DNA of 64,000 nucleotides, from positions 1-64,000 of the forward strand of contig WEDG01004095.1 of assembly GCA_017591395.1 (NCBI GenBank), written 5' to 3'. The notes below the pieces were generated by a model. That model was not told the origin of the DNA. It ran no database searches and was given only the letters and a program-made list of their open reading frames with translations. Shown one piece after another: positions 1-58,756 of the stretch; position 1 is the first letter of the stretch; each line of letters starts with the position of its first letter. The position numbers were made by a program, and so were the translations under genes. The stretch is from Schistocephalus solidus (lineage: Eukaryota; Platyhelminthes; Cestoda; Diphyllobothriidea; Diphyllobothriidae).

Positions 1-33
<33 letters not shown>

Positions 34-1357
34 AGTATGGGGGCTCACTGATCTGCTTAAGGAACGTGCATGTTCCGTTGTGCCCTGGAGCTCAGACTAG
101 AAGCCTCGCAGGTGGTCGCATAGCGACGTGTAGCATATGATAGAATGGAACCGACAAAGACATAGGGGACCGAATGGCCATTTCTGGCTTATTAGCCGTC
201 ATCAGCCAGACTCAATCCCAAGTGTGGCACACCTGGGATTCGAACCCGCGACCTTTTGGTATTTGAGTCGAACGCTCTCACCATTTTGAGCCACGGGCTC
301 GTTGTTTTGTCGGTTGTGATCGGGAATATGATGATAGTATGGGGCTCACCGATCTGCTTAAGGGCAACGCGTTCCGTTGTGCCCTGGAGCTCAGACTAGA
401 GCCCTCGCAGGCGGTCGCATAGCGACGTGTAGCATATGATAGAATGGAACCGACAAAGACAAGGGAGACTGGAATGACCATTTGGCTTATTAGCCGTCAT
501 CAGCCAGTCATACCCAATCCCAAGTGTGGCACACCTGGGATTCGGAACCCGCGACCTTTGGTATTTGAGTCGAACGCTCTACCATTGAGCCACGGGCTCG
601 TTGTTTTGTCGGTTGTGATCGGGAATATGATGATAGTATGGGGCTCACCGATCTGCTTAAGGAACGTGCATGTTCCGTTGTGCCCTGAGCTCAGACTCAG
701 AGCCCTCGCAGGCGGTCGCATAGCGACGTGTAGCATATGATAGAATGGAACCGACAAAAGACAAGGGAGACCGGAATGGCCATTTCTGGCTTATTAGCCG
801 TCATCAGCCAGTCATACCCAATCCCAAGAGTGGCAGATCGGTGAGCCCCATACTATCATCATATTCCCGATCACAACCGACAAAACAACGAGCCCGTGGC
901 TCAAATGGTAGAGCGTTCGACTCAAATACCAAAGGTCGCGGGTTCGAATCCCAGGTGTGCCACACTTGGGATTGGGTATGACTGGCTGATGACGGCTAAT
1001 AAGCCAGAAATGGTCATTCCGGTCTCCCTTGTCTTTGTCGGTTCCATTCTATCATATGCTACACGTCGCTATGCGACCGCCTGCGAGGGCTCTAGTCTGA
1101 GCTCCAGGGCACAACGGAACATGCACGTTCCTTAAGCAGATCGGTGAGCCCCATACTATCATCATATTCCCGATCACAACCGACAAAAACAACGAGCCCG
1201 TGGCTCAAATGGTAGAGCGTTCGACTCAAATACCAAAGGTCGCGGGTTCGAATCCCAGGTGTGCCACACTTGGGATTGGGTATGACTGGCTGATGACGGC
1301 TAATAAGCCAGAAATGGCCATTCCGGTCTCCCTTGTCTTTGTTGGTTCCATTCTATA

Positions 1358-1599: not shown

Positions 1600-1644
1600 C
1601 AGGTACTAGCTGTGAGTATGGTATGAGCTTTTAGCTAGTACCTG
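1600..1644. repeat. Perfect 12-bp inverted repeat (hairpin)
   Basis: CAGGTACTAGCT at 1600-1611 is the exact reverse complement of AGCTAGTACCTG at 1633-1644, with a 21-base loop. The right arm is the start of the repeat that also follows the hammerhead-like motifs near 34457 and 34813. Confidence 0.75.
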
Positions 1645-2408
1645 TTTTGAGGTTAGGATTCCACCTGTAACCCCTAAATATACTTCTGGCTGTCTGTTGG
1701 CAGTTCAATGAATATTACGCGGTTATCTCGCTGTGGCTTAGAGAAGTCGGCCCAAATATGCATATCAACTTTCAGTGTACCCCTATCAGCCTTCACATAG
1801 ACTAATTTACTCCAAGTTGGCGATTAATTTCGACGGAAATTAAAAAGCAGCAACTGATTGCAATTGTACTGTTTTATCTCTGACGATGGACTCCAGTAAG
1901 AGTTCTAAAGCTCAGACGAATACAGCCATGATTCCGGTGAACGAACAACCTTCTTCTTCACTAATTCGTGCGGCCTGCTCCACGGGAGCAAGTGAAGGAG
2001 TAAGTGCACATAGAGATGGTCTGAGCGAGCAACCTTTCCTTACCTTCTGCGTATCTAATAGGGTTGGTCGAGAATGATGCCTGCACTATCGCTGCTGAGA
2101 AGGTTCATGAACCAGATTAGTCAAAGCGTCGGCAAAGATGACTTGTATGGCCGCCCAACCAGGACACAGGAACAGAAATCACCCACAATACACGTAACCT
2201 GTTCTTTGAGGATGGTTTCACCTGTAACCCCTAAGTATACTACTGGCTGCCTGTTGACAGTTTGATAAATATTCATCGGTTATCCCGCCGTGGCTTCGAG
2301 AAGTCGGCCCAAATATGCATATCAACTTTCAGTCTACGCCTATAAGCCTTAAAATAGACAGATTTACTCCAAGTTAGCGATTAATTTCGAGAAAATTAAA
2401 AGCAGCAG
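1626..2408 (+). repeat. Two direct copies of a ~190-bp repeat
   Basis: Segment 1661-1853 and segment 2218-2408 are clearly homologous. Both carry CACCTGTAACCCCTAA, a GGTTATC core and CCCAAATATGCATATCAACT, and both end in an AGCAGCA motif. They are related to the hammerhead-associated repeat at 34457-34640 and to a fragment near 48973 (shared ACGYGGTTAT). The intervening 365 bases include an unassigned frame at 1886-2077 and a block at about 2120-2190 resembling 10040-10110. Confidence 0.7.
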
Positions 2409-5800: not shown

Positions 5801-8800
5801 GTTAGTGTGCATTTTTTGCCCCAAGTATATTTTTCTCTTTTACTTAACCTACTAATAGTGTGCTGTTCCCGTGCGCACGTGCGATGCAACTAGAGCAGCG
5901 GCTTTAAATCTTGTCCTTTATGAACCTCCTGAGACCTTGATGGGGATACGTCCCCATCCTAAACGGAATTAACTTAACGACGGCCTGCTAACGACTTGCA
6001 TCGCTCAATTCCGTTTCCAGACGGAAAATTGGGTGAAGCTCTGCGGCCTACTTTGCTTGGGCCAGCTTGCGGTTGGCATTGGTGAAAACGGAAAAGAAAT
6101 TACATGCATCTCCTGATGCCCTCTTCTTCTTCTTCTTCTTCTTCTTCTTCTTTCTTCTTTCTTCTTCTTCTTCTTCTTCTTCTTTCTTCTTCTTCTTTCT
6201 TCTTTTTCTTTTTCTTTTTCTTCTTCTTCTTCTTCTTCTTCTTCTTTCTTCTTTCTTCTTTCTTCTTTCTTCCTTCTTCCTTCTTCTTTCTTCTTTCTTC
6301 TTTCTTCTTCTTCTTTCTTCTTCTTCTTCTTCTTCTTCTTCTTCATTATTATTCTTCTTCTTTCTTCTTTCTTCTTTCTTCTTTCTTCTTTCTTCTTCTT
6401 CTTTCTTCTTTCTTCTTTCTTCTTTTTTCTTTCATCTTTCTTCTTCTTCTTTCTTCTTCTTCTTCTTCTTCTTCTTCTTCTTCTTCTTTCTTCTTCTTCT
6501 TTCTTCTTCTTCTTCTTCTTTATTCTTCTTCTTCTTTCTTCTTATTCACGGTTTACATAAACCTCACCACTTTCACGCCCTCTTTCATTATTTCCACTGC
6601 ATTTTTTCACGCTTATCCACGCTTATTCTATTCATTTCCTTCCCCACATCTATCTCTCTCGCTCACTGTTTCTAACGGTTTTTCAATATAACAGCAGTAA
6701 ACTCTTATCCCGCCGCCTACAAAAACTAGATGAGCTTTGAGCGTACGCTTTCTTGCTCTTGCTTTTGGTAATTTAAATGGCTCCTCCGCCGCCGCCGCCG
6801 CCGCCGCCTCCTCCTCCTCCTCCTCCTCCCCTCTTCGTTTTCTCTAAATCTCCCGCATGCGTTGTATTAGTGCGCTCGAACGCTATAGGACGCGAGCATC
6901 CGCATCCTTTCCGCCCCGCCATTTTGACAGGTCACGTTGGCTGCGGGTGTGTTTTAGTCAAGCCGCGCTGAGTCGGCGAGAATCCCTAACTACCACCGTA
7001 GGCGCGTTTTGCTCACTTTAGACGCAGGCTCCCCGCCCTGTAACCGCTATTTCTACCCTTGTATCCAACGGTATATACCGTGTGTAACACTGCAAAGTGC
7101 TACAGAGACGACGACACGCGCGTGAATTAGATTATAGCGAGAGAAGACTTGCTCTGCATCTACCGCTCTCTCTCTCTCTCTCTTCTACCTGGGTCCGCTG
7201 ACATGACCAAATAAAGAAGCTCGGAGGCAAGACAACCACTTATACAAACACACACTGGGCTGACCGAGCATTCCGAGATAAGCCGTTAGCTGGCAACTTC
7301 CCAAGCCACGGTTTCAGATTGTTTATTGTGAGGAAAACGCGCTGAACCGTCGACCTCACTCGATTCCCAGGCCCCAGTCGCTGTCCGAGCCGGTCAGTTA
7401 ACTGGTGTGGGCAATAGGTAACCACTACCACTACCAGCCAATACTCCCAATCTCATCACCAGTTGGTTGGGTCAGGTCGCTGGGAGTTGAGAGTAATGTG
7501 TGTGCAGCTTGGAGCCATTACTTAATTTCTTCACAATTAATAGTCCGTCGTACTTTGCAATCATTACATCTCAGCTGAGGTCGTGGCTTGGAGGGTTTTG
7601 AACTGAATGAATCACTCCGTAGCCCTTTACAAAGACGGTCAGACTGCAATTGCTCCCTTGTTAAGCCCAATGCTTTAACGGTTAGGCCACGGACTCATTC
7701 TCGTGTCGGTTGCAATTGGGAATATTAGATATGTTGTAAGTGCGTCCATCGATCAGCTTGTGGGACATGTTCGTTCCGTTGTGTTTCGGAATTCAATCTG
7801 CAGCCCAGCGCTCAATCGCAGGATTTGGGCTCAGGTGTCGCAAGGCCTAATCTTGGGTAAGGCTAGCTTACGACCATTAATAAGTCGAAAATGGTCATTC
7901 CAGTCTTCCTTGCCTTTACTAGCAGTCTTTCTGCTGGACGCTGTCACCACCGGCGGAACTGTAAATTAAGTCTTGGAGCACGAGGGGACGAATCTATTCC
8001 GTATCGCGACTTTTGAGTGCCCTTCTGCCCTTTTTAAAGTACCTGATCGCAGCCGACATGGTACCGAGCACGTGGCTCGATGGATAGGATTTGGGCCTTT
8101 GAACCAACAGGTTGGGATCTCAAGTCTTAATGGTTGTAAAACCTAAGGTTGGGTATTGATGGCTGATGGAGGCTAATACGCCAGAAATGGCCACTCTATT
8201 CTCTCATGTCTTCATCATGTCATAACCTTGTTTAAGGAAAGTACTTAGTTATAACGTCAGTTGGCAACCTTTGACGCGCGCAAAATTGAGTTTAGTCGGG
8301 ACTGGACTGACTTGCTATAAGTAAAGGTACCTCGGTATCGACTTCACCCTCCCATGCACTACTGGTCTTTCCGAGCCTCTCCACTCCGGACGAGATTGGC
8401 ACAATGGCTGTGGTGCTGGCGCCACCTAGCCTGGCATTTCGACCGTCGTAATCTAACGATATCCACCGTATCCTCTACACCATGGTGGTGCAGGAAAGGT
8501 TACTTGCGCGTGGATTAGTTTTGAGTGATAGTAGCCCTGCGCTTCAGATACCGCACTCCTCCCCCTTCCCCGCCTGAACCGAGCGCAGGTGGCTGTCACG
8601 ACCGGAGCCGCCCCTGGGCGTGCCACCACACCTGGCTCGGATCCCACGGAGTGGGAGTGCCATAAAAGCCACATTAAGAAGGAGCCATTGCAACCTGACT
8701 CTCAGCCCACCAGGCAGCCACTCCACACAAACACACAGTCGGCTGACCGGGCAGTCCGAGATAACCCGTTGGCTGGCCACTTCCCAAGCCACGGCTTTTA

Positions 8801-11800
8801 GCGCACCATGATAGTTACGTGCGCGTCAGATTGTTTATTGTGAGGAAAATGCGCTGAGCCGTCGACCTCAATCTCTCCCCTACCCCCACAATCAGACCAC
8901 CGCCCGAGCCGGTCAGTTGTCTGATGCGGAAGTGGGCGCAGCTGCTGGTGACCTCGTCTACGGGTACTACATACACGGCCTGACCCCCCAAACACAAGCA
9001 CCAGGATTTCACACAACGGGGGGTTGACCGGCTTACAAATCACATGTGTTACATAACCAGAGGTCACGTTAAGAAGGAGCCATCACAGCCTGACTTTCAG
9101 ACCACACAACACACAGTGGACAAACTGCGAGGTCCGAGAGTAATTGTCAGTTGGCAACCTTCCAATCCACGGCGCTTATCTCCCCATGATATTCTCAAGC
9201 TCAGATTACACATGCAACAGAGGAGCCACATGGAGAAGGGGCCGGGGATCATACTTGCCTCTCAATCAGCTATGCAGTCTAACATCATGTTTTCTGTGGT
9301 CTTGTGTGTGCTCCTGTGAGGTGCAGATGCTGATGAAGAGAGATGTATTGTTGTGGTATAGCCGGCAGTGTTCTACCGCAGGTTTAAAATTATAAGCATG
9401 TGACCTAATAGGCCCATGTGGTCTGTGAATGTGCGTGGGCGGTGCGGACAGTTGCGGCGGGTGTATGTTGGTGCTCCTGGCACTGGTTTGCCGGTCTCTG
9501 TGCGAACACATGCGTCGATCACCACGGCCTGGTGTAGACTCAATATAGTCGAAGCTAACCCGTATCACAAGATAATATGGCCTCGTTCTGTTTAAACGGA
9601 GTAGTGGTGCAATCACATTCACGTCCCTCGGCACCATAACTTGGAGCGACTCTGCTCCATGCCGCCTGTATCATTATTCATCCGATGGAATGGTGCACGC
9701 ATACGGGCTGGTGTAGATAGTTCGCATGGGAACTTGATCACAACCGGAATCTAAATCACACCCTTTACTGTTTTGGCTGCATAATTTGCCCTTTTTAGAC
9801 TAATATCTTTCCCGGGCCTCTGTTTATGCACAACTGAAATTCAGTTTGCGAGTACTCCTTAAGCGCTTTGGCCGTTAGTCAGCCCACCGATGTAATATAC
9901 CAATGAGTGGAGCCTACCTCAAATGTGTTGAGGGACCAACACATGAGTGGCATGCGCAGTGGGAGACTTTATGCCAGGTCAATGTCCCCAATCATCTTGA
10001 CCTCGTCACGCCACTGAATCATGATGGGTGTGGAGAGAGCGGGAGGAATGATTTGTTTGACCGCCTAATCAGGACACAGGAATAGGAATTGCCCACAGTG
10101 CATGTGGTTTTGTGTCTCCTTGCCGAGAGAACTAGAGGGGGAGAGAGAGAGAGAGAGGGGAGGTGATGGCGTCGATACCACTTTTCCCTGCCGATCCCCT
10201 AGTAATGTTGACCAAGTTGGAGCACCATCACCATGTGCCTGATGCACGAATTATTCTTATTCGCACTTGCAGCTCTAATCTCCTGTAACCTTATTTTTTA
10301 ATTTTTTTGCAGTATGTTGTCAACTGCCACGGACAAACGCTGTTGCCGCAGTACCTGGGCATGTACCGCGTCACGGTGAACGATCAAGAAAGTTACCTGC
10401 TTGCTATGCGAAACGTGTTTAGTCCCCGTGTCACAATCCACAAGAAGTACGATCTGAAGGTAAGTAGGTGTTTTTTACTTTGCATGCCTTTCTGGCCAAT
10501 CGTACTTAACGGAATCATCACTTAATCCCTTTGAAGATGCACCTACGGGTGTTTCACACTCTAGGTAATCTGAGTAGACTTATTGCCGCATCATTGCCTT
10601 CACCACTGGTAGTTTCCACTGGTTGTAACTGTCGTCACTCAGCGAGCGGCAGGGAATCCTGCCTGCCTACTGCTTTCGATCTGTTCTTACTCTCTGGGTT
10701 ATCACTCCTTGGAATTTAACTTTTGTTTACGAGAGGCTGGGCTTGGGACGCTGGTGAGGAACTTCTGTCACCATTATAACCCAGTCGACACTTGCGACAC
10801 TTATTTGAACTTGAATTTTTTGTGGCATTTTCTTTGCATTTCTCACCTACTTATGATCGAACGTAACCTTTAATTGTGACTTTCACTGCCTGCTTGGTGC
10901 CCAATTCTGTTATTCCGTCTCCTGCTACCAAATAGGTGATGACTCTGTTGAGCATGCTTTCCTTTTTGTTTTGATCCATTTGTCTGCCTCCATCATGGAC
11001 TCGTAATCGAGACTAGTGACGAGCTTACTGCTCTGGATGCATAGTCCCTAATAGTATACAGAAATTCGTATAACCTATAAAGAAGCCGATAACTTTTCAG
11101 GTCAATTTTGATGTACAATAGTTTGCCTACTTCATGAAATGTCTATATCAGAATTTGAGGTAGTAGCAGGGCACGCATTTTAAGGTCTTAGTTCTGTTTT
11201 TTTCTATTGAATTGATGCACAAAAAGCTGTTTAATAATAAAGAGTTCACTTCAGATCCGTTTATTGATGGGAAAACGGGGCTAAATGGGGCAAAATCCGA
11301 AGTTTCTTGCTATCGAGGAATTTTCCCACGCTATTAAAAGCTACGGATGAAAGCATTTTGTTTTTATGCGCAGTACTATGAATGAACATTAATATAAGCC
11401 GGGAAAATTTGGAATATATCCCTTCAGAGAACGGAAAATTTTGCTTTGTTTCCACGAAAATCAGGTGAATGCAGGTTTGAGAGATCACATTTTTCGAAAA
11501 AACAAGGGCAGATTCAGCCAAAAAAATTAAATTTTGCAAATTTATGACATTTTGCGCCACTTTTCACTGTCACGGCGTACGCGAAGCCTGCCAAGAAAAT
11601 TTCGGTCTGCAGCTGACTATAAATGAATGAGGAAACTTGACACGGAAGGGGCAGAAGATTGGCATTTTATCGCAAAATCTTAGTACGTATTCAAACGCTC
11701 TCTTGTGCGTTTGAAATCTTAAAACTAGACTGAGAAGTCAAGCAAATATATCGAAAAACGCTCCAACAGAAAGGAAAAAAGGAGTTGTTTAATTTTCAGC

Positions 11801-31271: not shown

Positions 31272-34000
31272 TCTATCTATCGATCTATCTGTAATCTATC
31301 ACCTATATATCTATCTATCCTCTCTCCCTCTCTCCCCACAATTATCATTCCTTTTTCGATTCGAACTTGTCGGTCTAGCTGTCTTATTGCCTGGAGGAGA
31401 GAAGGATCGTTGTCTTTTGTTCAATTATATATATATATATATATATATATATTGATACGTAAGTAGTGAAAAGAAAGCATCCCAAGAAATAAAGTTGAAG
31501 TTGAATACGTTCTATGGGAAATGGAGCTTTATTGTGTAAATTTTCAACACCGGTTCTCCGGGTCGTCGTCAGACGCAGGCGGGCAGCAAATGTGACCAAA
31601 AACAGTTGACATGGTAATCACGCGAAAAAAGTGGATACTGGCGTGAACATTGGCACAATTGAGTGGCCGCCGTGTGTATCAGCCTGTCCTGATTGGTTCT
31701 CGTTTCTTCCATTTCTCCTTGAGATGTCTGTACACCGCATCCAACTCGATATGTCTGTTGATGCATGACTCATCTGAATGCATCGCCTCGAGGAACTCTC
31801 GACCTTTCTTGAAGGGACAGGCGGCGACAATCCGAGTTTTATCCCAAGCGAAGGTGTGCCCGGTGTCTAGAGTATGCATAGCTGTTTGGGACAGATGGTC
31901 CCGCCTCTTTACTGCCAACTGATGTTCATAGATGCGTGTAGAGGCGGATTTGCCGGTCTGACCACAATACACGGCATCACATGCTTCACACGGGATCTTG
32001 TAGATGACTTCTTTCTTGTCCAAATAGTTGACCCTGTCCTTAGGGTGGACAAGCTGGGTACGCAAAGTGGTTGTCGGTTTGTGCGCCACATGAATTTGGT
32101 GCTTCCTTAGGTGTCTTTCGACGAGTTCAGACACATTCTTAATGTAGGGAAGGGTTCGCCATGTATTTATTTTTGGCGCCTCGTTAGAACTACTTGGTTC
32201 CTTTTCTGTCGACTTCTGTCCTTTCAAGTATCGGCGTACAAAATCCTTAGGGTACCCGTTCTGCGAAAATAATTCACACAAGTAATTCAGTTCGATTCGA
32301 TAGCCTTCTTCGTCGGAGCAATGTGTTTTTGCTCGACTGAGTAGACTGTTGACAGCACTCCGTTTGTGAGCGATAGGCTGATTGCTCTCATAAGGCAGAA
32401 TAACTTCGGCATACGTTTCCTTTCGATAAACCGATGTGCGTAGTGTTCCGTCGGTCTTTCGTTGTACGAGAACATCCAGGAATGGGAGTTTATTGTCAAC
32501 TTCCTTTTCGAGTGTGAATTGGATTCCCGGGATTGTGGAGTTGATGGTGTTATGGAGCATTTCCAGTTGGTCCTTTTTAACGACAACAAATGTGTCGTCT
32601 ACATAACGTAGCCATAATTTAGGATAAACTAACGGAAGAGCCGTGGCCTCGAGTTTCTGCATTGCGATTTTGGCGAGAAAACCAGAGATGGGTGACCCCA
32701 TTGGAGCTCCTTTCAGTTGCTTATAGCATTTTCGGTCGAATGAAAAGTTAGTTTCTAAACATAGATCCATGAGCTCGAGTACGGCCGCTGCTGGAACATC
32801 CGTATCGTGGGACGACAGAAGTTCCTTTGTGTATTGTTTTGCTAGGGCTAACGGTATAGACGTGAAGAGGGAAACGACATCGAAGGAGACCATTATTTCA
32901 TCTGTGGAGATTGTGGTTCCTTTTAATTTCTTTAGAAACTCCGTTGAATTCTCAATTGAGGTTTCACAATTCTTCGTAAGCGGATGAAGCTTTTGGAATA
33001 ACCACTTGGAAATTTTATAGTTGGGCGCACCGATCAATGACACTATAGGTCGCAGTGGAACTTCAGTTTTGTGGACTTTAGGCAGTCCATAAATCTTCGC
33101 GATGGTTGGTTCAGTTTGTCGCAGGGATTTAGCAATATTTCCTGACAGTTGCTTCTTCCCTGTGAGACGTTTCAACACCTTATCAATAGATGAATTCTGT
33201 GTCTTTGTAGGGTCCGCAGAGAGTGGTTCGTAGGTGGATCCATCTTCTAACAATGACAGCATCTTCTTATTGTAGTCTGTTTTGTTAAACACCGCAATCG
33301 CGCCTCCTTTGTCCGCGGGGAGAATGATAATATCCATGTCAGTTTTAAGACCCTTTAACGCTTTCCTCTCTTCATGTGATAGTACTGAAAACTGTTTCCG
33401 GTCTTTTAAGGCTTGTATGGTACTATTTCGTATAGTAAACCGTTCATCTTCTGAGAGGTTCACAGTCGATATGATGGATTCCAAGCTTGCAAGAAACCCC
33501 AAATAGTTTGAGTCAGAAAGATTGTATTTCAGACCTTTGGAAAGCACGCTCTCTTCCGTTGTTGTGAGGATTCTCGATGACAGATTTATGACCTTCTTTG
33601 AACACTTCTGGTTTGTGTCGGTTTGTTGTGAAATGTTCAACCATTTTCTGTCTAAAACATTCCGCTTCTTCTGTCGTTCGCGTTCTGAAGCACGGGCAAT
33701 CGTGTCGTTTAGGGATTCAAATAATTGTGAAGGAAGCTGTTCTCGGCAAATCTTCATGTGCCGCTCCTTAGAAACTTGGAATTTTTGGAGTCGGAAATGG
33801 GCATCAGTTATGAAAGCACCAAGCATGCTTCGCCCGTAACGGGTCGCAATTTGGTATCCCAGGGTAGACTTAACGGAAGGTTTCACGTGTACAGACTTCG
33901 GTAAAATCTGCTTCTTCCGACATCTGTGTAGAAATGCTAACTGTTCTCGCGTTAGACTTTCACGAATGGCACATTTTTCCCACCGTCTGGCTTGGAGCAA

Positions 34001-34041
<41 letters not shown>

Positions 34042-37000
34042 AGGTGGAACCGACAAAGACAAGGGAGACTGGAATGGCCATTTCTGGCTTATTAGCCGTC
34101 ATCAGCCAGTCATACCCAATCCCAGGTGTGGATCACCCGAGATTCGAACCCGCGACCTTTGATCATTGAGTGTAACACTCTACCATTGAGCCACGGGCCC
34201 GTTGTTTTGTCGGTTTTGCGATCGGGACTATGAATTATGATAGTGAGGTGTTCACCGATCTGGTTTAGGAACATGGATGTTCCGTTGTGCCCTGGAGCTC
34301 ACTTTATAGCCCTCGCAGGCAGTCGCATAGCAACTTGGGGAATATGATGACATATATATATTGCTAATTGAAGCGAAGATGCGCGTCCCTGAGATTGCCT
34401 TTTCTTCTCGTTACTGCGTCATGTAGCAGCAGAAACATCGGCGAAACACGTGTCTGGGCTTTTAGCTAGTACCTATGTCGGAAGTACGGTATAACATCTG
34501 TGCCATATAAGATTCATACTACTTGTAGTACTACTTGTTTGTAGAATGGGCATCACGTGGTTATTCCACAGTGGTTGATTATCTTCGACCCAAATGTTCA
34601 TTGAAATTTCGGGTCTGACCCTAGAAAGTAATGTCCGAATCATCTGACTCCACGTCCTGCACTTAATAATTTCAGAAATTATTTCATTGATTATTCTCTG
34701 GAGTCCATATACCAGAAACCGCATAGAGCACGCTGGGGGACCCACTGAGGAGCCGAACCCCTCGTTGCTGCGTCACGCGGCAGCAGAAACATAGGCGAAA
34801 AACCTGTCTGGGCTTTTAGCTAGTACCTATGTCGGCAGTATGGTATAACATATGTGCCATATATATCCCGAGTTATCCTCTTGATTGCAACCTTCCAAGC
34901 GACGATTGGTAGCGTGTGGCTGTTTATATTAAAGAACTCAACGGTGGATCTGATCATAATTCACCTCTCCCTCTTCCAGGCACCAGTGGCTTGTTCGAGT
35001 CACGCATTCTGATTTAGGTGAAATGTTTGGCGGGTTAACGTCTCAACCTGTGCATTCACCGTTTTTGTCTGTGTGCTGCAGTTACACTATCTTGTTTCAC
35101 GAAGATCTACCGAGCATAATATTGACTGATTAGCCTTCGATATGATGCGTTTACATAACGTGCGGTAGCTGCTCCGATTTCTTAACTACTGTTATCTCTT
35201 CTGAATCACTGACCCGGAGGATTTTCGACTGTTCATCTCCAAAGTTGTGATGTCACAGTTATGATGTACCTCATCTGTCATCTAACTGATGCTTGAAGTC
35301 CATGGCCTCCTGCTCACCTCTGCCTCCATTCTATGCTAATGCCAAGCGACCAGCCCATATCGCTCGATTTCGTTTACTAAGAAAGCACAAAATTATATTT
35401 TTTTCGGTCACACCTCGGTTTTCTGTCAGTATGGTGGATTTTAGGCGAAATGCCTTCTGTCTTTAGTTTCTGCAGGACAATAACCTCATGGACTACAGCG
35501 TTCTGGTCGGCATCCATGATGTTGAAATGGCGACAGAATTACCGCCAGAGGAGCCTCCAGAGCTGCGCGACAGCTCACACGAACCGTCCACGGCCTCTGC
35601 CGGCGATGGACTGGGCGAGCTCTTCGAGTCGCATTACCGCCTTTCTGGACCCCAATGCACTAGCGGCGTTAACGCCATGGTTGTAGGCTCTTCGGGTTCC
35701 ACAACTGCTGCGCGGCCGATCGTTGGGGCTGCCAATGCCTCTATAGACGAAGACGACGACGATGAGGAGGAGATGAAGTATTCAGATAGTGGGCCTGGCG
35801 GGAATGGTCTACTTTCGTGCAGCTCTCCAACCGACTATGACACACTCACCCCTGGAACCACTCGGCAGCCTGGTAACTTATTTTTGGCTACTTAATTCCA
35901 CTAAGTAATCTTCCCAGTAGTTCAGGGAAGGAAAAGGTATATGTCAACTGATGCGCGTAGTTTTTACGATACTTCTCAAACTTTTATACCCAAAATCTTC
36001 GAAACCGTCTCTTAAGGAAGGAACCACTAGCAAGCTCATAAAGCCCCGACCAGTAGGTACTGTGGTTACAGCGGCCCTATGCTCGATATGGAGGAAAGGT
36101 TGCCAAAAAAGCTTGTTCGCGTTGTAATACACAATCCGCTGAGGAAGTCCATCTCATCCATATCGCAGCCTTATTTGTTTTATTAAGCTCCGAAGATGTT
36201 CTTCTTTAACCAAAACTTCCTCAGTAACCATTGATCCTTTTTGACTCGCCCGGTTGTCCTCCTTCCGACCCCTTTTGGCAGTCAATAGCCACACTATGAG
36301 TGGCGCCTACTGATCTGTCACACCACGTGATAGTTCAAATTTTACCGATTACTGGGTCCACCATTGACTGCCCCAGGAGACATGCACACCAGTTATTTGT
36401 GGGGAAACCGACTTTCCCCGCATTTACCTCACTGTATCCTGCCTCAGCCACCGAGCTCCGATAGTCAGGTGACTTCAAGGCTACCGTTGGGTGATCATGA
36501 ACGAAATGACAAAATAGGCCACATACGCGTACCACACAAGATTTGTTTCCTATTTTACACGCACCAAACCACACTTTATGATACGCTTCTCACTTAACTG
36601 GGATGTACTTGGATTTTAAAATGCGACATTCCGCTCCTCCTAATGCCTTGGTTACTTCTATCGCAGTGGTTTAGAACGAGCCCGTGGTTCAATGGTTAGA
36701 GCGTTGTACTTCTGATTAACAGGTCGCAGGTTCGAGCCTCGGGTTGTGACCATCTGGGGTTAGGTATGACTGGTTGATGATGGCTAATGAGCCAGAAATG
36801 GCCATTTCATTCTCCCTTGTCTTTGTCGGCATTGTTTATCTGCCTCTTCTATTACTAGCCACTGTGCGGTTGCTGGCGTGGCTCGAGAATGAGCCCGTAG
36901 ACAGAACGGGACGAGTGAGTTCCGTTAACGATCAGTGAGCGTTCATCAACGAATGTTGCAACAGCTTTTTTATACTTGTTGTGTATACCCATGTAACTGA

Positions 37001-40000: not shown

Positions 40001-43000
40001 ACTTAATCCTAACTCCAACCTATATCCCTCGCCCTAATCGTAAACCGAACGCTAGCCCTCCTGCTAACACTTGAAGGATGCCTAAAGAGGAATGAGCGAA
40101 AGGTAAAGAGGTTTAATTAAGGAGTTAAGGCTAGGTGAAGCCGCATATCCACTTGTCACCGAATGCTCTTTCTTGTACTCATTTGGCTGTAACTCACTTC
40201 TTTACATTTTATGCTCAAAGGCCATATTTAGGTTTTTTTGAGTTTGACATTTCACTCATAGTTTTGATTCCGACCTGCCGTTGCATTTGATTTTTGGGTT
40301 TACATTCTACAAGCTGTATACTTTACAAGTAAGGAAAATCATAAATTCCTCTTTGCTCTTAAAAAGATGCCATGCTGGGCTCATAAAATCATGTAATTAA
40401 TATAGGCTGTGTTGGATACTTCGTGAAGGGCATTCATTTGAATAGACGTTGCAGGTTCTTAAAAGCGCATGTTACCCTTTCTCCGGGCATAAACTATGAG
40501 AAACACATGATTTTCTACTGAATGAGTACATTAAAAAAATATTTATGCGCATATATTCTGTAACTTATATTTTAATTTATAAGGACATCAAAGATCCCCG
40601 AGACGCGTGCATGCTACTACCGTTTTTGTGGACAGCAGAAAAGATGAGCATTCAAAAGCCAATGTCCTAGCATGTCTTAAATGTCATTATCCGATTGTTC
40701 GACCGTCGATTTCGACGATGTCCACCGTATGCTCCACGGAAGGCTGGTGCAGGGACGGTGACGTGTGCGTGAATTAGTTTTAAGTGATAGTAGCCTTGCG
40801 CTGCAGCTACCGCCCTCTATCCTCCTCCCCCACCTGAACCCGGTGTCATGACAGAGTCAAGAAAACCGGAGGCGAGAGAGGACGCATATGGCTGGCGTGG
40901 CCGGAGCCGCTCCTGGGCGTAACACCACACCTGGCTTGGATCTAACGGAGTGGGAGTGCCATAAAGGCCACATTAAGAAGGAGCCATTGCAGCCTGACTG
41001 TCAGTCCGCTAGTCAGCCACCTCACACAAAACACACATTGGACTGACCACGCGGTCCGAGTTATCCCGTCAGTTGGCAACCTTCCAAGCCACGGCTTTTA
41101 GCGCATCGTGATAGTTTCAAACGCGTCAGATTGTTTATAGTGAGGAAAATGCGCTGAGCTCTCGACCTTACTCTCTCCTCTACCACCACCACAATCAGAC
41201 CACTGTCCAAGCCGGTCAGTTGTCTGAGGCGGAAGTGGACGCAGCTACTGCTGACCTTGTCTACGTGTACTACGTACACGACCTTGCCCCCCGAATACAA
41301 GCACCAGGATTTCACACAACAGGGGATTGAACGGCTTACATCTCACATGTGTGAGATAGTCAGAGGTCACGTTAAGAAGGAGCCATCGCAGCCTGACTAT
41401 CAGACCACCAGTCAGCCACTCCACACAACACACATTGGACTATCTGCGAGGTCTGAGTGTAATTGTCAGTTGGCAACCTTCCAACCGCGGCGCTTAACCT
41501 TACCGCACACTCTTCTCTTCCCCTACCTGAGCCCGGTCTCATGACACAGTCAGGAAGACCGGAGATGGGAGAGGGCGCAGGTAGCTGGCGCGGCCGGAGC
41601 CGCCCCTCGGCGTACCACCACACCTGGCTCAAATCCCACGGAATGGGAGTGCCATTGGCTCGGCCACATTAAGAAAAAGCCATTGCAGCCTGACTCAAAG
41701 TCTGCCAGTCAGCCACTTCACACAAAACACACATTGTGCTGACCGTGCAATTCGAGTTATCCCGTTAGTTGGCAACCTTCCAAGCCACGGCTTTTAGCGC
41801 GCCGTGATAGTTTCAAGCGCGTCAGATTGTTTATAGTGAGGAAAATGTGCTGAACTCTCGACCCCACTCTCTCCCCCACCCCCACAATCAAACCACTGTC
41901 CGAGCCGGTCAGTTGCCTGATGTGGGAGTGGGCGCATTGGCTGACGGATCGGCGTATGCGTCTTCGCGCACCACAGCATGACCTGGCCCCCATAACGCAC
42001 ACCAGGATTTACTTACTGAGGGGATATGGAGCAGCCATCGCCGTCTGACTCCTAGTCCACTGGTCAGCCACTCGAAACACAACACATACTCTGAGCCGAC
42101 GGCGTGGTCGGGTGTTAGCGTCAGATTGGCAGCCTTCCCAGCCACGGTTTCTAGGAAACCATGATATACTCAGGTACATGGTGATTGTGAGGGTGTTTTC
42201 GATGTATTGGTGTAGGTAGTTTGCGCTGATATAGCTAAGCCTCCGGTGGTTTACCGCAGGTTTTTGTGAATGCGCATGTGGCCGAATAGGCCCATGCGGT
42301 GTATGAATGTGCGGGAGCAGTGAGGGCAGTGGAGGCGGGCACGTCGACTGTATGTCGGAGCCCCAGGCGCTGGTTCGACAGCCTCCATGCGATGGATTTG
42401 CAGGTAACCGATTAAGCCGATGCCTGAGTTGAATTTGCGGGCGCCGTGTGTGCAGAAAAAATCGGAAGAGGCTGCGGGGTGTCATTCATGGTAGTGGGGG
42501 TGGCGGTGGCGGTAAGAATGGCTTGAGCGGAGGGTGTGAATGGGGTATAGGTGTTGTCGGCATTGCGGTGAATTCCGCTGTCATGGATGCGCATCTGACC
42601 GAATAGGCCCATGCGATGAGTGAATGCGCGAGGACAGTGAGGGCAGGGGAGTCGGGGATCTCTGCTGCGTGTTGGAGCTCCAGGCACTGGTTCACCGGTC
42701 TCTGTACGATGGATTCGCAAGTGACCGACCAGGCCGATGTGTGAGGTGAATGTGCGGTCGCAATGAGGACAGTTTAGGAGAGAGTCCCCATCGATGATGG
42801 TGGTTGTGGTGGTGGTCCTGGGGGTAACACGTGCTGAGCATTGTGCTGTGGTTTCGATGATGGTGGGACTAATAGAATTGACGCCAGGGGTGAGGGTTGG
42901 GTAATCCGAAGGAGGGTTGGCAGAAGTTGACGTAGAATTTTGAATTGTTGGATTGTTGGTGCATTGCGTCTGAAGATGTCCGACTAGGCAAATTCGCGCG

Positions 43001-46000
43001 CGGAAGGTGCGGTGACAGCTCGGGCATGTTGGAAGGACCTGGGCATTGGCGATGTCAGTCCGGGATGCTGGTGACTTTCGTGCCGCTCTTTTAGTCTTGG
43101 CAGCGGTGATCCTGTTGGCTTCGTAGATTGCTACCCCTGTCTTCACTGTTCTCCTCCAAGCCGATCGATTCCGGGCAAGGTTCTCCCAGGACTCTGGGTT
43201 GATCTGCAATTGCTTCAAAGTATCTTTGTAGCGTCGAACTTGACCCCCTTGTCGACGTGAACCCATGGGTAGCTTTTCGTCGTCCATCCGCACAAGGTAA
43301 CCGCTCCAGCGCAGTTGCAGTTGTTTCAACTGAGCGTAAATGCTGAGAATGCCTGTTCATTCTAGCGTTTCCGTGTCCGGTATCCTGTGTTGCCAATTCA
43401 GCTTTAGTTTTCTGCGGAGACAGCGGAGGTGGAAGTGGTTGAGCTTCCGCGCCTGCTTCTGGTAGATCATCCACGTCTCCGCTCCATACAGCAGGGTCGG
43501 CAATATGACAGCTTTGTACATCTTGAGTTTGGTGCTGAGGTGGAGACCATGTCGATTCCAGACCACATTTTGCATGCGTCAAAAGGCTGCTGGCTTTAGC
43601 GATCCGATGGGCGATCTCATCGTCGAATTTGGTGCTGCGTGAGAGATTGTTGCTTAGGTACGTGAAGGTATCCACAGATTTATGTTGGGCGCCATTGACA
43701 TTGATGTGAGCTGTGGTGTAGAGAGTGTTGGGCGACGGTTGATGCATCACAACCGTTTTCTCAGTGTTGATGCGAAGTTCGAAGTTGTCACAGGCGGCAG
43801 TGAAGAGGTCCATGCTCCTTTTCATTTACTTTTCTGTCGTTGTATTGAGTGCGCAGTCGTCAGCGAAGAGAAGTTCGTGGAAGGTGGCTGTGGAGACACG
43901 CGAGTGGAAGTGCATCCGTCGTTGGTTGAGGAGTCGGCCGTCCATCAGGTAGGCGATGCGGATCCCGGGGCTTTCGTCGCGGTAGGCATCCATTAACATT
44001 GCAGAGAACATGAGGCTGAAAAGGGTAGGTGCAAGGACGCAGCCCTGCTTCACTCCGTCGGTCACTGCGAATGCTTCAGATACTGTCCCGTTGTCAGCAA
44101 CGCGCGCCATCATCCCGTCGTGAAGCCGACGTACCATATGCGTGAACCGTTCAGGACAGCTGAATTTCTGCATGATTTTTCACAGCCCGTCGCGATTCAT
44201 CGCGTCAAAGGCTTTCGTCAGATCCAAAAAGATAGTGTAGAGGTGAGTCCGCATCTCTTGGCACTTCTCTTGCAGTTGGCGAGCAGCGAAGATCATTTCG
44301 ATTGTTCCTCTGTGTCGTCGAAAGCCGCATTGGCTTTCCGGGAGCAGTCCTTGCTCCAGGAGAGCATTGAAGCGGTTGAGGAGAATGCGGGCAAAGATCT
44401 TTCCAGTAATGTTCAGTAGCGAAATGCCTCGGTGGTTGTCGCAGAGTTGGCAGTTCCCTTTCTTCTTGTAGAGCTGGACAATGGTGGCGTCTTTGAAATC
44501 ATGAGGGACTTGTCCTTGGTGCCACATCTCTTGGAAGAGCACTATGAGTCGATTCATCAGCTGGGGTCCACCATGCTTGTAAATCTCAGCAGGTATCATT
44601 TTAACCACTATCACAACCACACTTAAGTAGACCATTCCAGTGGAAAACACGCTTCAAAGTTTTGGCCAACATTTCTTGAGATCGGTTGCTGACAGTATTT
44701 AGCGCTCCTTGTCCCTTCCGGGGCCTCTAGTGTGATTTTTTATGACTAGTTGATTATATGAATCATCAGAACAAGCGGTCTGTTGTGTAATCTCTCGTAG
44801 ACTCTACACTGACATAGTAATGTTCTTCCTTGTGAGAGGGCTTAGAATGAAGCCGATCATTTGCATAATTTCCTTCATTGTCGAGTTTTACGCGTCGTAT
44901 ACTTCAGACAGAGAAGTCAAGCGCATTCTTGCCTATCACCACATGGCCTTTTACCGATTCCGAAGTTACTGCGCTGACTTAAAGTAAATCCATCGGTGTA
45001 AACCTTTTCAGGCTCGTATTAAAAGTTTATATGAATATTTGAACCGAAATCTGTCAGCTACAATTAAATAATCACATATTTTTGCAAATATTTAATGATT
45101 CGCTATGCTGACAGCACGGCCTAGCTAAGAGCCCAAGCATGTATTTTGTCGATTTTTTCCCGCTGTGTGACGCAACTGCGAGGGGTCTGCTCATCAGTTC
45201 TTTCTCTGAAATCCTTTATCATTGCACATTGAAGTTGTAGATTGTTAGGTCTCAGACTGTTAGAATAACTGTGTCCTTTTTGGGGGGGCGAAGAGCGAGT
45301 GAAATCAACTTTGGGTATTCCCTTCCCATGGCACATCATCGCATTCCTCAGTAACAATAACTTTGACGCGCTTTGACACTCTCACAACACATTTAAATTC
45401 GTGGCCTGGAAGGCTGCTGACTGGCTACGTAACGCAGTCCTCTTAGGACGGAGAGGCAGACTCACAGCTCCTTCTAAATGTAGTCTTTCCTGGCTTTCCC
45501 ACTCTGGTGGCATCCGAGCCGCCCCTTTTGTAAGTGCTAGTATCTCCTGTGGAGACCGGGTCGCGTGTGGCGCCGGGCTGTTTTGCTTTATCGGCCATTG
45601 CCCCCGACGGTCTGAAATACCAAACCAGTTACTTTTTTACTTTGTCCAAAATATTTATTGAGGAAGTCCTTTCATAAACCTCGAATTTTCTCGTCAGTGT
45701 GGACAGTTTGCGCCGTCGTGGTCTAATGTGTAGTTTAAATTACAACCCCCCTGTAGAGTGTTCTCGCCGACTGTAAAAACTCTTGCCAATAAGCTGATCA
45801 TATTTTCTTAGAAGTAGCCGTCATTTTGTTCACATCGTTGTTTGTTGACGACAATGTTTATCTGTTTTGTAGGCAACTTAACTCCTCCCGAGAGTCCTTC
45901 GGATTTCTCCTACCGTCTTCAGCCATTCGTCGGAGAACTCAACCCCAACACTGAATTTTACGGAATTAAGGGATCTCCCAGTAAGTTAGTTCTCCTGCCT

Positions 46001-48963: not shown

Positions 48964-49060
48964 TAGCTTTTGAATATTACGCGGTTATTCCACAGTTGTT
49001 GATGGATTTCATCTAAACTATTCCTATCAATTTTCGGATTGAGAATAAAAAGATTTGTTC
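48964..49060 (+). repeat. Fragment of the hammerhead-associated repeat
   Basis: TAGCTTTTGAATATTACGCG and GGTTATTCCACAGTTGTTGA match 1690-1735 and 34545-34575. No ribozyme core is present in this fragment. Confidence 0.6.
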
Positions 49061-49696
49061 CGATGGATTTCAGTATCAGTTTATTTGAGGGAGATGTAGG
49101 TGAGTCACCTTTGAATTCCCTATTTGTACATGCGATTTGTGGTATCAAAAAAAATAGTATCTCGATATGTTGGCGAGGCCAACATAGTGGAACAAAGTTG
49201 AAAAAGAGCAGACAGGGAAAAAAACTCCCGGTGATATTTAGGAGAAAAAAACTGTCGCCCTTGGGAGGGGGGGGGTCCAACGGGGGCATTTCGGAGGTCA
49301 CATGATGCTCCATTGCTGATTGCAGCGTCCGTTGAGGGATTTCAAAGGCTGAAATATATGTCCAGATCATCCTCGATCCATTGCGGTTCGAACCAGGGGA
49401 TAACGTTCATACGCCTCATGGACGACGGTCGCCAGGTCCAGCTGATGCGAATACTCACGGTGTCACCAAGGTGTGTAAATAAGTTAAGCATCGAAGACCT
49501 CGAGGACCCCAGCATGGGAATAATGGGAGAATGCAAGCCCTCGAACGAAAATAACAAACAAGGAAATGTTACTCAAATATAACTAGTAGTATCATAAATG
49601 CCTTAATTTCTGACGCCACACTTGCAGCTTTCAGTTAGTGTTGTAGCTCGCACCATTATATCGATCTAACTTTCGCTTAAAAACATCCAAGGAGTC

Positions 49697-53909: not shown

Positions 53910-53970
53910 TTTGTATACCACGAGGCACGGGATGAACGCCGGGGGACCCACTGATCAGCCAAACCCCTCG
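53910..53970 (+). repeat. 5' half of the hammerhead-type repeat
   Basis: GGGGGACCCACTGATCAGCC (53941-53960) followed by AAACCCCTCG matches 34735-34764. The core box is CTGATCA, one base from CTGATGA. The 3' half with GAAA is absent. Confidence 0.6.
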
Positions 53971-53999
53971 CAGCGGCGTTACACATAATCACTGAGACT

Positions 54000-54734
54000 T
54001 GAAGAACAAGAAAGTGGTTCAATATGAATCTTTGAGTAAACGTTCACGTAGTAGTACGGGAGCTTTGGTGCTATAATGCGGCTTGCTTTCTCTCACTGTG
54101 ATCTCGTAGGACGCACAGTGAGTATTCTACTTAATAAAAAAATCTTCCTTCTCGTGCTTCAGATTCGTAGGATGCCAACCTTTCTACGAGAGCTGGCTGA
54201 AACCTCGGAGGCTTGTTCACATCGTTCCGTTCCAGTCCAATTGTTCATCCATGCAAAACCTTGCTGATTGATAACCAGTCGAAACCAATAACAGTGTTTG
54301 CCGTTGTCAAAGATTGAAATTATCCCACGTCTTTGTATGCACCCGTCTGCTTAAGTGATACTGCGCTCAGCAAGTGTATACATTTGATTGTATGTGACCG
54401 GGAAGAGTACGGGTTTTGTTCGGCATCGCAGACTGCTAGTATATGTATCTTTTTTAACAAAAGCGATTCTCTGTGCAACAACAAAGGCGAGAATAATTGT
54501 GTAGCCAAAAGGATTTTGGATTAGGCTTTGGAATGGTCAGCCTCCGACTGACATGTTTGTGAGCGGTAAGCAATCTATAGATGAAATGGAATCTAAGCGA
54601 CAAGTTCGCTTATGATTGACGTAAGAGGACAAATACATTAAGGTAACCCAAACGCGTGAACGCAAAACCATAACCACCTCTTCTACATTATCGTGCCTTT
54701 CCACACTGTCAAATTGATACTATTCAATCTACCA
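54000..54734 (+). other. Unassigned intergenic DNA
   Basis: Nothing recognised. Short frames on both strands lack any conserved motif. Confidence 0.4.
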
Positions 54735-57904: not shown

Positions 57905-58756
57905 TGACAGTTCGACCGTCGATTTCGATGAGGTCCACCGTATGCTCCACACCAGGTGGTGCAGGGACGGTGACTTGCGCGTGAATTAGTTTTAAGTGAT
58001 AGTAGCCTTGCGCTGCAGCTACCGCACTCTCTCCTCCTCCCCCACCTGAACCCTGTGTCATGACAGAGTCAAGAAGACCGGAGGCGAGAGAGGACGCAGA
58101 TGGCTGGCGTGGCCGGAGCCGCTCCTGGGCGTAACACCACACCTAGCTTGGATCTAACGGAGTGGGAGTGCCATAAAGGCCACATTAAGAAGGAGCCATT
58201 GCAGCCTGACTGTCAGTCCGCCAGTCAGCCGCCTCACACAAAACACACATTGGACTGACCACGCGGTCCGAGTTATCTCGTCAGTTGGCAGCCTTCCAAG
58301 CCACGGCTTTTAGCGCACCGTGATAGTTTCAAACGCGTCAGATTGTTTATGGTGAGGAAAAATGCGCTGAGCTGTCGACCTTACACTCTCCCCCACCTCC
58401 TAAATCAGACCACCATTCGAACCGGTAAGTTTTCTGATGTAGAAGTTGGCGCGTTGGCTGACGGGTTGGCATACCCATCGTCGCGCGCCACAGCACGACC
58501 TGGCCCCCATAATGCACACACCAGGATTTTCTTACTCAGTGGATATGGAGGAGCCATCGCCGTCTGACTCCCAGTCCACTGGTCAGCCACTCGACACACA
58601 CAACACATACACTGGGCTGACGGCGTGGTCTGGTGTAAGCGTCAGGTTGGCAGCCTTCCAAGCCACGGTTTCTATGAAATCGGGATTTTTCAGGTATACT
58701 GTGATGATTGTGAGTGTTGTCTATGTATTAGTGTACATGGTGTGCGCTGATGTGGC
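57905..58756 (-). repeat. LINE-Z copy A 3' UTR
   Basis: It is homologous over its length to 40707-41160 and 41880-42240 and to 8440-8900. It carries the CCACACCAGGTGGTGCAGGG and GAATTAGTTTTAAGTGATAG blocks at its distal end, and modules near 58195 and 58555. Confidence 0.85.

Follow-up and report, generated by a model that had tools for sequence, protein, structure and literature searches.

Metazoan non-LTR retrozymes, in the account of Cervera and de la Pena (2020; PMC7229834), are tandem repeats of 150-450 bp, with RNAs of ~170-400 nt and a GC content below 50%, and Penelope-like elements (PLEs) are named there as a strong candidate for their mobilisation. Further marks of the class are the lack of LTR, PBS and PPT, target-site duplications of more than 4 bp where there are any, and a highly self-paired RNA that occurs in tissue as circular and linear monomers. 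The tapeworm repeat family described here resembles the retrozymes of that account in its type I hammerhead, its 2-bp stem III with a tetraloop, its tandem units, its GC content below 50% (44% in the window unit) and its coexistence with PLEs. It differs in that its stem II has an insert of ~39 nt with a 9-bp hairpin, and in that it is known here from DNA, with junctions that point to (TA)n-primed insertion and to joins with PLEs. No insertion junctions of animal retrozymes are shown in the first parts of the Results or in the Discussion of PMC7229834, and the junction record described here bears on how these elements move. Among flatworms, the schistosome W-elements (W36.2, 333-335 bp) and SMalpha are described in PMC8490949 as repeats with type I hammerheads whose stem III is extremely short; of the five candidates tested there, three cleaved in vitro, and the two that did not were mutated. 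As far as those descriptions can be compared, the tapeworm repeats are likewise flatworm repeats with short-stem-III type I hammerheads, whereas the schistosome elements lie on the W chromosome and autosomes of schistosomes.

Plant LTR retrozymes, as summarized in PMC7229834, are also non-autonomous and hammerhead-bearing, but they have type III hammerheads and LTRs with PBS and PPT, in contrast to the type I hammerheads, tandem units and scattered 5' ends of the tapeworm family, whose array structure argues against LTRs. According to these two sources (PMC7229834, PMC8490949), the kind of element is already known, flatworms included. What is new is the tapeworm family, with its long stem II insert, and a set of junctions that links the insertion of retrozymes with (TA)n and PLE units. 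A literature search by title and start of abstract, with most subscription journals outside its coverage, returned no report of a tapeworm hammerhead, and searches of the literature with motif strings led nowhere.

Hammerheads of PLEs were reportedly described by Cervera and de la Pena in 2014. The PLE that neighbours our locus has a terminal unit with a minimal hammerhead of that kind, and the (TA)n setting is common to it and the retrozyme. By contrast, the motif studied here differs in sequence, lies on the opposite strand and has its own 354-bp unit.

The repeat and its hammerhead motif in the window

The window is the whole stretch of DNA analysed (64 kb), and its features are collected in Table 1. 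It contains a 103-bp direct repeat (34407-34509 and 34761-34863) with copies that are 90% identical and 354 bp apart from start to start, which bears out the direct repeat of ~355 bp in the initial annotation. That annotation had read two copies in hammerhead order. The order is canonical in copy 2 (CCCA-CTGAGGA-GCC...GGC-GAAA-AACCTG-TC-TGGG), where the intact CTGAGGA box and 4-bp stem I were seen exactly as described. Copy 1 does have the intact half ascribed to it (GGCGAAACACGTGTC-TGGG), but this is the 3' half only. Its supposed 5' half (34381-34406) is flank that belongs to another repeat; therefore, copy 1 is half a ribozyme, and its reading as a degenerate whole hammerhead was rejected. 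The GAAACACGTGTC of copy 1 is the commonest form in the family (199 of 248 units), and copy 2 retains a single stem III pair, where most units have A-U plus C-G with an ACGT tetraloop. The placing of the locus in a kinase intron is based on a downstream PIP5K-like exon match of 25 bits, against a Pfam cut-off of 27.

Table 1. Features of the retrozyme locus, the PLE and related sequences in the 64-kb window
Feature	Position	Strand	Details
Penelope-like element	31453..34348	-	ORF frame 31679-34132 with RVT_1 (4.6e-8)
5' pLTR-type unit of PLE	about 34038-34348	-	
Hammerhead of PLE unit	34067..34111	-	box starts 34105; C.A mismatch at stem II base
Head-to-head PLE-type units of 299 bp, with an (AT)n tract on either side	25..1350	.	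hammerhead boxes 807-, 986+, 1290+
Left flank with fragments of a different (TA)n-associated repeat	34362..34406	.	partly matched by eye
Truncated first retrozyme unit, 5' part gone	34407..34509	+	unit positions 252-354; hammerhead 3' half and tail
Hammerhead 3' half, copy 1	34440..34458	+	GGC, GAAA, stem III C-ACGT-G, TGGG (sequence)
Predicted cleavage in copy 1	after C34454	+	
Complete 354-bp retrozyme unit: body, hammerhead, tail	34510..34863	+	354-bp tandem step in genomic arrays
Hammerhead ribozyme motif, copy 2	34732..34820	+	stem I GCTGGGGGA.CCCA / TGGGCTTTTAGC; core, stem II, stem III
CTGAGGA box, copy 2	34745..34751	+	sequence
Stem II, copy 2: GCC/GGC and long insert	34752..34796	+	9-bp hairpin 34764-34784 in insert
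GAAA, stem III, U16.1 C17 in copy 2	34797..34808	+	predicted cleavage 34808|34809
Fixed 3' end and short AT remnant	34862..34867	+	(AT)n at same place in most sampled insertions
Old relic, tail and body	1603..1842	+	BLAST E 5.7e-9
Possible old relic, body	2197..2386	+	direct BLAST E 0.31; strong only with model including it
Old relic, CTGATGA intact, G of GAAA lost	44959..45228	-	direct BLAST E 7.9e-10
Old relic, body	48971..49066	+	BLAST E 2.2e-6
Old relic, only hammerhead 5' half (CTGATCA)	53920..54000	+	BLAST E 3.0e-7

Matches elsewhere in the genome to the DNA first annotated start at its position 27. Because nearly all of them cover positions 27-483, many stepping by 354 bp, 34407 is the start of the retrozyme repeat, of which the window has 1.3 units; the 5' end of copy 1 re-aligned to unit position 252. 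Judged by its sequence, this insertion of a retrozyme-type family is decayed and 1.3 units long. The string CTGAGATTGCC of 34381-34406 is part of the other, (TA)n-associated repeat and not of the retrozyme. The other end of this flank repeat matches contigs C758, C2395, C3008 and C406. Its letters CTGAGATCGCCTTTTCTTCTCA were legible by eye on the opposite strand beside (AT)n at C2046, and visual comparison also placed its CTGAGAT(C)GCC part there and in the sequence contexts of the other-end matches. This flank repeat (window 34362-34406), a third (TA)n-associated repeat, ends in TTCGCTTCAATTAGCAA(TA)n and was seen in five contigs including that of the window.

A strict descriptor (CTGANGA, stem II of at least 3 bp, GAAA, A15.1-U16.1, UH, stem I of at least 4 bp, stem II loop of at most 60) gave one match on the two strands of the 64 kb, which was copy 2. 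In 1000 dinucleotide shuffles, 0.023 matches per window were obtained (19 shuffles with any match, none with Watson-Crick pairs only), an expectation that is somewhat optimistic because the motif had already been seen when the descriptor limits were chosen. On the basis of the strict descriptor, the shuffle expectation, the pairs and the folds, copy 2 is assigned a type I hammerhead motif, with box, GAAA, UH and stem order all present. A looser scan that allowed a mismatch at the stem II base and one core mismatch gave four extra matches, all in PLE-type units and with intact cores (boxes at 34105 and 807 on the minus strand and at 986 and 1290 on the plus strand). The Rfam hammerhead models gave no match to the window copy at E<=10; this silence is a weak test, since the PLE hammerheads were equally missed by Rfam.

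When stems I and II were enforced together with an open core, copy 2 lay 4.6 kcal/mol above the minimum free energy (MFE), compared to 1.0 kcal/mol for a typical unit of the family (1.8 kcal/mol when the two stem III pairs were also enforced). This low fit implies that window copy 2 is a decayed member. In these folding models, a hammerhead is no longer the best fold of the window copy, whose ribozyme is probably weak or dead. The overall fold of this decayed unit did not clearly surpass those of shuffles, with a z of -1.64 (7 of 100 shuffles were as good). Pair counts on the four window copies revealed no compensatory changes and no excess over shuffles. The GGGGG in stem I (34735-34739) and CCCC in the stem II loop (34758-34761) could pair in a loop-loop contact; these stretches are ~94-99% conserved in the family, which is no more than the remaining unit.

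Conservation of the ribozyme across the genomic family

The search of the tapeworm's own genome covered 8019 contigs (603.7 Mb) and scored 36 of its 1759 candidates. It gave at least 196 matches, window included, and among the matches listed the others were 93-96% identical. Many lay head-to-tail with 354 bp from one to the next and formed arrays, for instance on contigs C1130, C283, C7943, C185 and C3392. We obtained 248 units that span the ribozyme after 39 of 287 matches were set aside for lack of this span or for too many gaps or N. CTGAGGA was present in 230 of these units, GAAA in 233 and the full core in 203, so that the two motifs stand together in the family consensus. Full-core units were found under 38 of 41 contig labels (none in C1520, C2327 and C406), where two labels are the same contig and units within one array are not independent. 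An earlier subset was similar, with the full core in 124 of 147 units (17 of 164 matches left out).

A typical unit (one unit, L017) matched the RF00163 Hammerhead_1 model with 22.8 bits (E 0.0012 for 136 bases; 45 of 45 positions), which is below the gathering score of 34. The covariance-model check suggested in the initial annotation therefore gave a match below the gathering score for the typical unit and none for the window copy. Stem II of the typical unit is formed by 5 bp (GCCGA/TCGGC), followed by an internal loop and the 9-bp hairpin; in the alignment, the family insert takes up 39 positions, compared to 8 in RF00163. Moreover, the contig-weighted divergence in 34700-34859 was 1.35% at core positions and 3.25% elsewhere, and 124 of 20000 random 16-position sets were as conserved as the core (126 of 10000 with a smaller unit set). 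We conclude that the 354-bp repeat with its conserved hammerhead is, to judge from these alignments, a large retrozyme-type family in a tapeworm.

Insertion ends, (AT)n tracts and Penelope-like elements

The 3' ends of the insertions are fixed at unit position 353, or less often 182, and they usually abut (AT)n. In stretches chosen by sequence, (AT)>=4 lay beside 15 of 19 ends at 349-354 and 5 of 6 ends at 180-186 and was absent from the single end elsewhere, compared to a background of 25 of 9129 window positions; six of these 26 3' ends had no (AT)n. A second set of stretches was chosen by pattern, as 20 of 100 listed TGTGCC(AT)n sites (140 counted) picked by hand down the list. These were counted separately for (AT)n, which lies behind one end by construction, and were included among the 55 5' ends and 248 units. 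Here, (AT)n was found at 19 of 19 position-353-type ends (by construction), 5 of 5 ends at 180-186 and neither of two ends elsewhere. Genome-wide, TGTGCC(AT)n has 140 exact sites, compared to 6 for the reversed pattern. Ends at the edges of stretches were omitted from the end counts, as was one end running into N from the (AT)n count.

In contrast to the 3' ends, the 5' ends are scattered along the unit, and these dispersed insertions agree with the retroelement reading of the initial annotation. Among 55 resolved 5' ends, 20 (10 pairs) were head-to-head, 7 were at (AT)n, 4 were at PLE-type sequence and 24 were other. Position-182-type ends (180-186) were head-to-head with a position-353 end in 8 of 11 cases, six of them called by pattern, C6980 by coordinates and C1061 by visual inspection of its flank; those at C805 and C435 were not head-to-head, and C1824 gave no call. 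Ten of 51 5' ends (the 55 minus four whose re-alignment fell short of the element) fell at unit positions 303-314, just behind the predicted cut 299|300, although they are not independent (C191 and C434 give two each). These ends are no more than a lead; they could reflect run-off on cleaved monomers, with a TAGCTA palindrome there as a rival cause. No target-site duplication was definable in the flanks seen, where insertion inside (TA)n would hide duplications. The multi-unit arrays cross the cleavage site unbroken, and copying starts elsewhere in the unit, which suggests that the template was a circle or an uncut multimer and not a cut monomer.

The neighbouring PLE, whose 3' limit was placed by inspection of the letters beside (TA)n, carries on the opposite strand its own, different hammerhead, which was absent from the initial annotation. 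The relative with the highest score for its protein is in Sparganum proliferum, with 86% identity across 72% of the query, and such protein relatives point to a tapeworm host. Scans of viral contigs for the PLE protein and two motifs led nowhere, as did a PDB sequence search with the PLE. We rejected the possibility that the retrozyme is the PLE's own pLTR repeat, in keeping with the initial annotation, as the two lie on opposite strands and BLAST at E<=0.01 matched the retrozyme to neither the unit nor the 3' part nor the body of the PLE. The 299-bp PLE units (34038-34348 on the minus strand and 25-1350) contain a minimal hammerhead and a tRNA-like sequence that scored 31 bits with RF00005 at 544-599; an ARAGORN tRNA search of 1-1500 found none. 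The tRNA-like part is possibly a Pol III promoter in the PLE terminal unit. PLE and retrozyme share the (TA)n setting and the head-to-head form, which the PLE shows at window 25-1350; there, (AT)n follows two distinct ends of the PLE units, a feature also of the retrozyme.

Retrozyme and PLE sequences are joined directly at two loci. At C1355, minus-strand PLE units are followed by the plus-strand retrozyme, with (AT)n at both outer ends, and the PLE units are 93-95% identical to the window's 299-bp unit and 98% identical over 83 bp to the neighbour's pLTR. The order at C6020 is the same, with PLE units 93-95% identical to window 1-1350 and a PLE side that runs off the contig. No (AT)n intervenes at either join, where about three shared letters were seen by eye, and the geometry is that of a head-to-head self-insertion with PLE RNA on one side. 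These direct joins support, without proving, the handling of PLE and retrozyme RNAs by one machinery. The PLE pieces at both joins begin directly behind the tRNA-like part (CCCAAGT), and tRNA 3'-end processing might make the RNA 5' end of the joined pieces.

Possible route of insertion and its alternatives

The best explanation, which we consider likely, is a non-LTR retrozyme family with a type I hammerhead in each 354-bp unit that is copied from (TA)n primers by PLE-type machinery. Multimeric transcripts would cut themselves at the site matching 34808|34809, and the resulting 354-nt monomers would be ligated into RNA circles. Where a chromosome breaks, (TA)n ends that become exposed may then pair with A/U-rich sites at unit position 353 or 182 of the circle or multimer and act as primers for reverse transcription, possibly for several rounds of the circle, by a PLE-type reverse transcriptase/endonuclease. 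Copying would often proceed from both DNA ends at once and so give head-to-head insertions. More tentatively, and with rather less confidence than we would need to prefer it, we propose that both ends of a broken (TA)n prime on one and the same RNA circle, at the A/U-rich sites 353 and 182, which lie roughly opposite each other, and that the PLE reverse transcriptase copies both, sometimes with PLE RNA on one side. If this is true, the genome records the target-primed copying of a ribozyme-made RNA circle. At least 140 exact junctions of a retrozyme end with (AT)n occur in this one genome. Among the insertions sampled, start points are fixed, copies form head-to-head pairs and two are joined to PLE units. 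The junction record makes the PLE hypothesis testable, by junction counting and by a cell assay.

An unlikely but serious alternative is that a retrozyme-type repeat was mobilised by other machinery, such as a LINE or break repair capturing cDNA, and that the PLE merely shares its (TA)n target. Only 4 of 55 resolved 5' ends are next to PLE sequence, three of these being 70-72% relatives, and the C6020 join lies outside that count and was found only in the separate end count. With two clean joins, a shared (TA)n preference could co-locate both elements without shared enzymes, and (TA)n may be, by assumption, simply a fragile target. Against this reading, close PLE units are joined directly to the retrozyme at two loci without (AT)n in between and in the head-to-head form of both elements.

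It is improbable that the family is ordinary satellite DNA, spread by unequal crossing-over or rolling-circle DNA replication with the ribozyme as a passenger. Unequal crossing-over could have grown the long head-to-tail arrays (in the stretches examined, C1130 has 15.9 units and C7943 has 17.7). Against a satellite stand a single fixed 3' end that meets (AT)n at 140 exact sites, the scatter of the 5' ends, the head-to-head copies and a core conserved above its surroundings. An LTR or TRIM-type element, with the 103-bp copies as short LTRs around 251 bp in the window, is scarcely credible and was rejected, as the same sequence forms multi-unit arrays of 354-bp step with variable 5' truncation and scattered 5' ends elsewhere, and not a single LTR pair. 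Chance likeness to a hammerhead in an unrelated repeat, which would fit the Rfam result and the single stem III pair of the window copy, is just as hard to credit given the shuffle expectation, the RF00163 match of the typical unit and the intact core in 203 of 248 units.

The retrozyme lineage has also left diverged relics in the window, which implies that it is older than the young arrays. The extent of the relic at 44959..45228 was taken from an nhmmer model that includes that copy, and no second hammerhead was found beside the older relics. The neighbouring PLE copy may be fairly young, as its frame (31679-34132, minus strand) is open for 817 codons from stop to stop. An unrelated dispersed repeat of ~320 bp, with copies at most 89% identical, occurs at 40980-42166, 58192-58692, 8681-9207 and other places, and a 47-bp piece that resembles it lies directly to the right of the retrozyme element (34868-34914).
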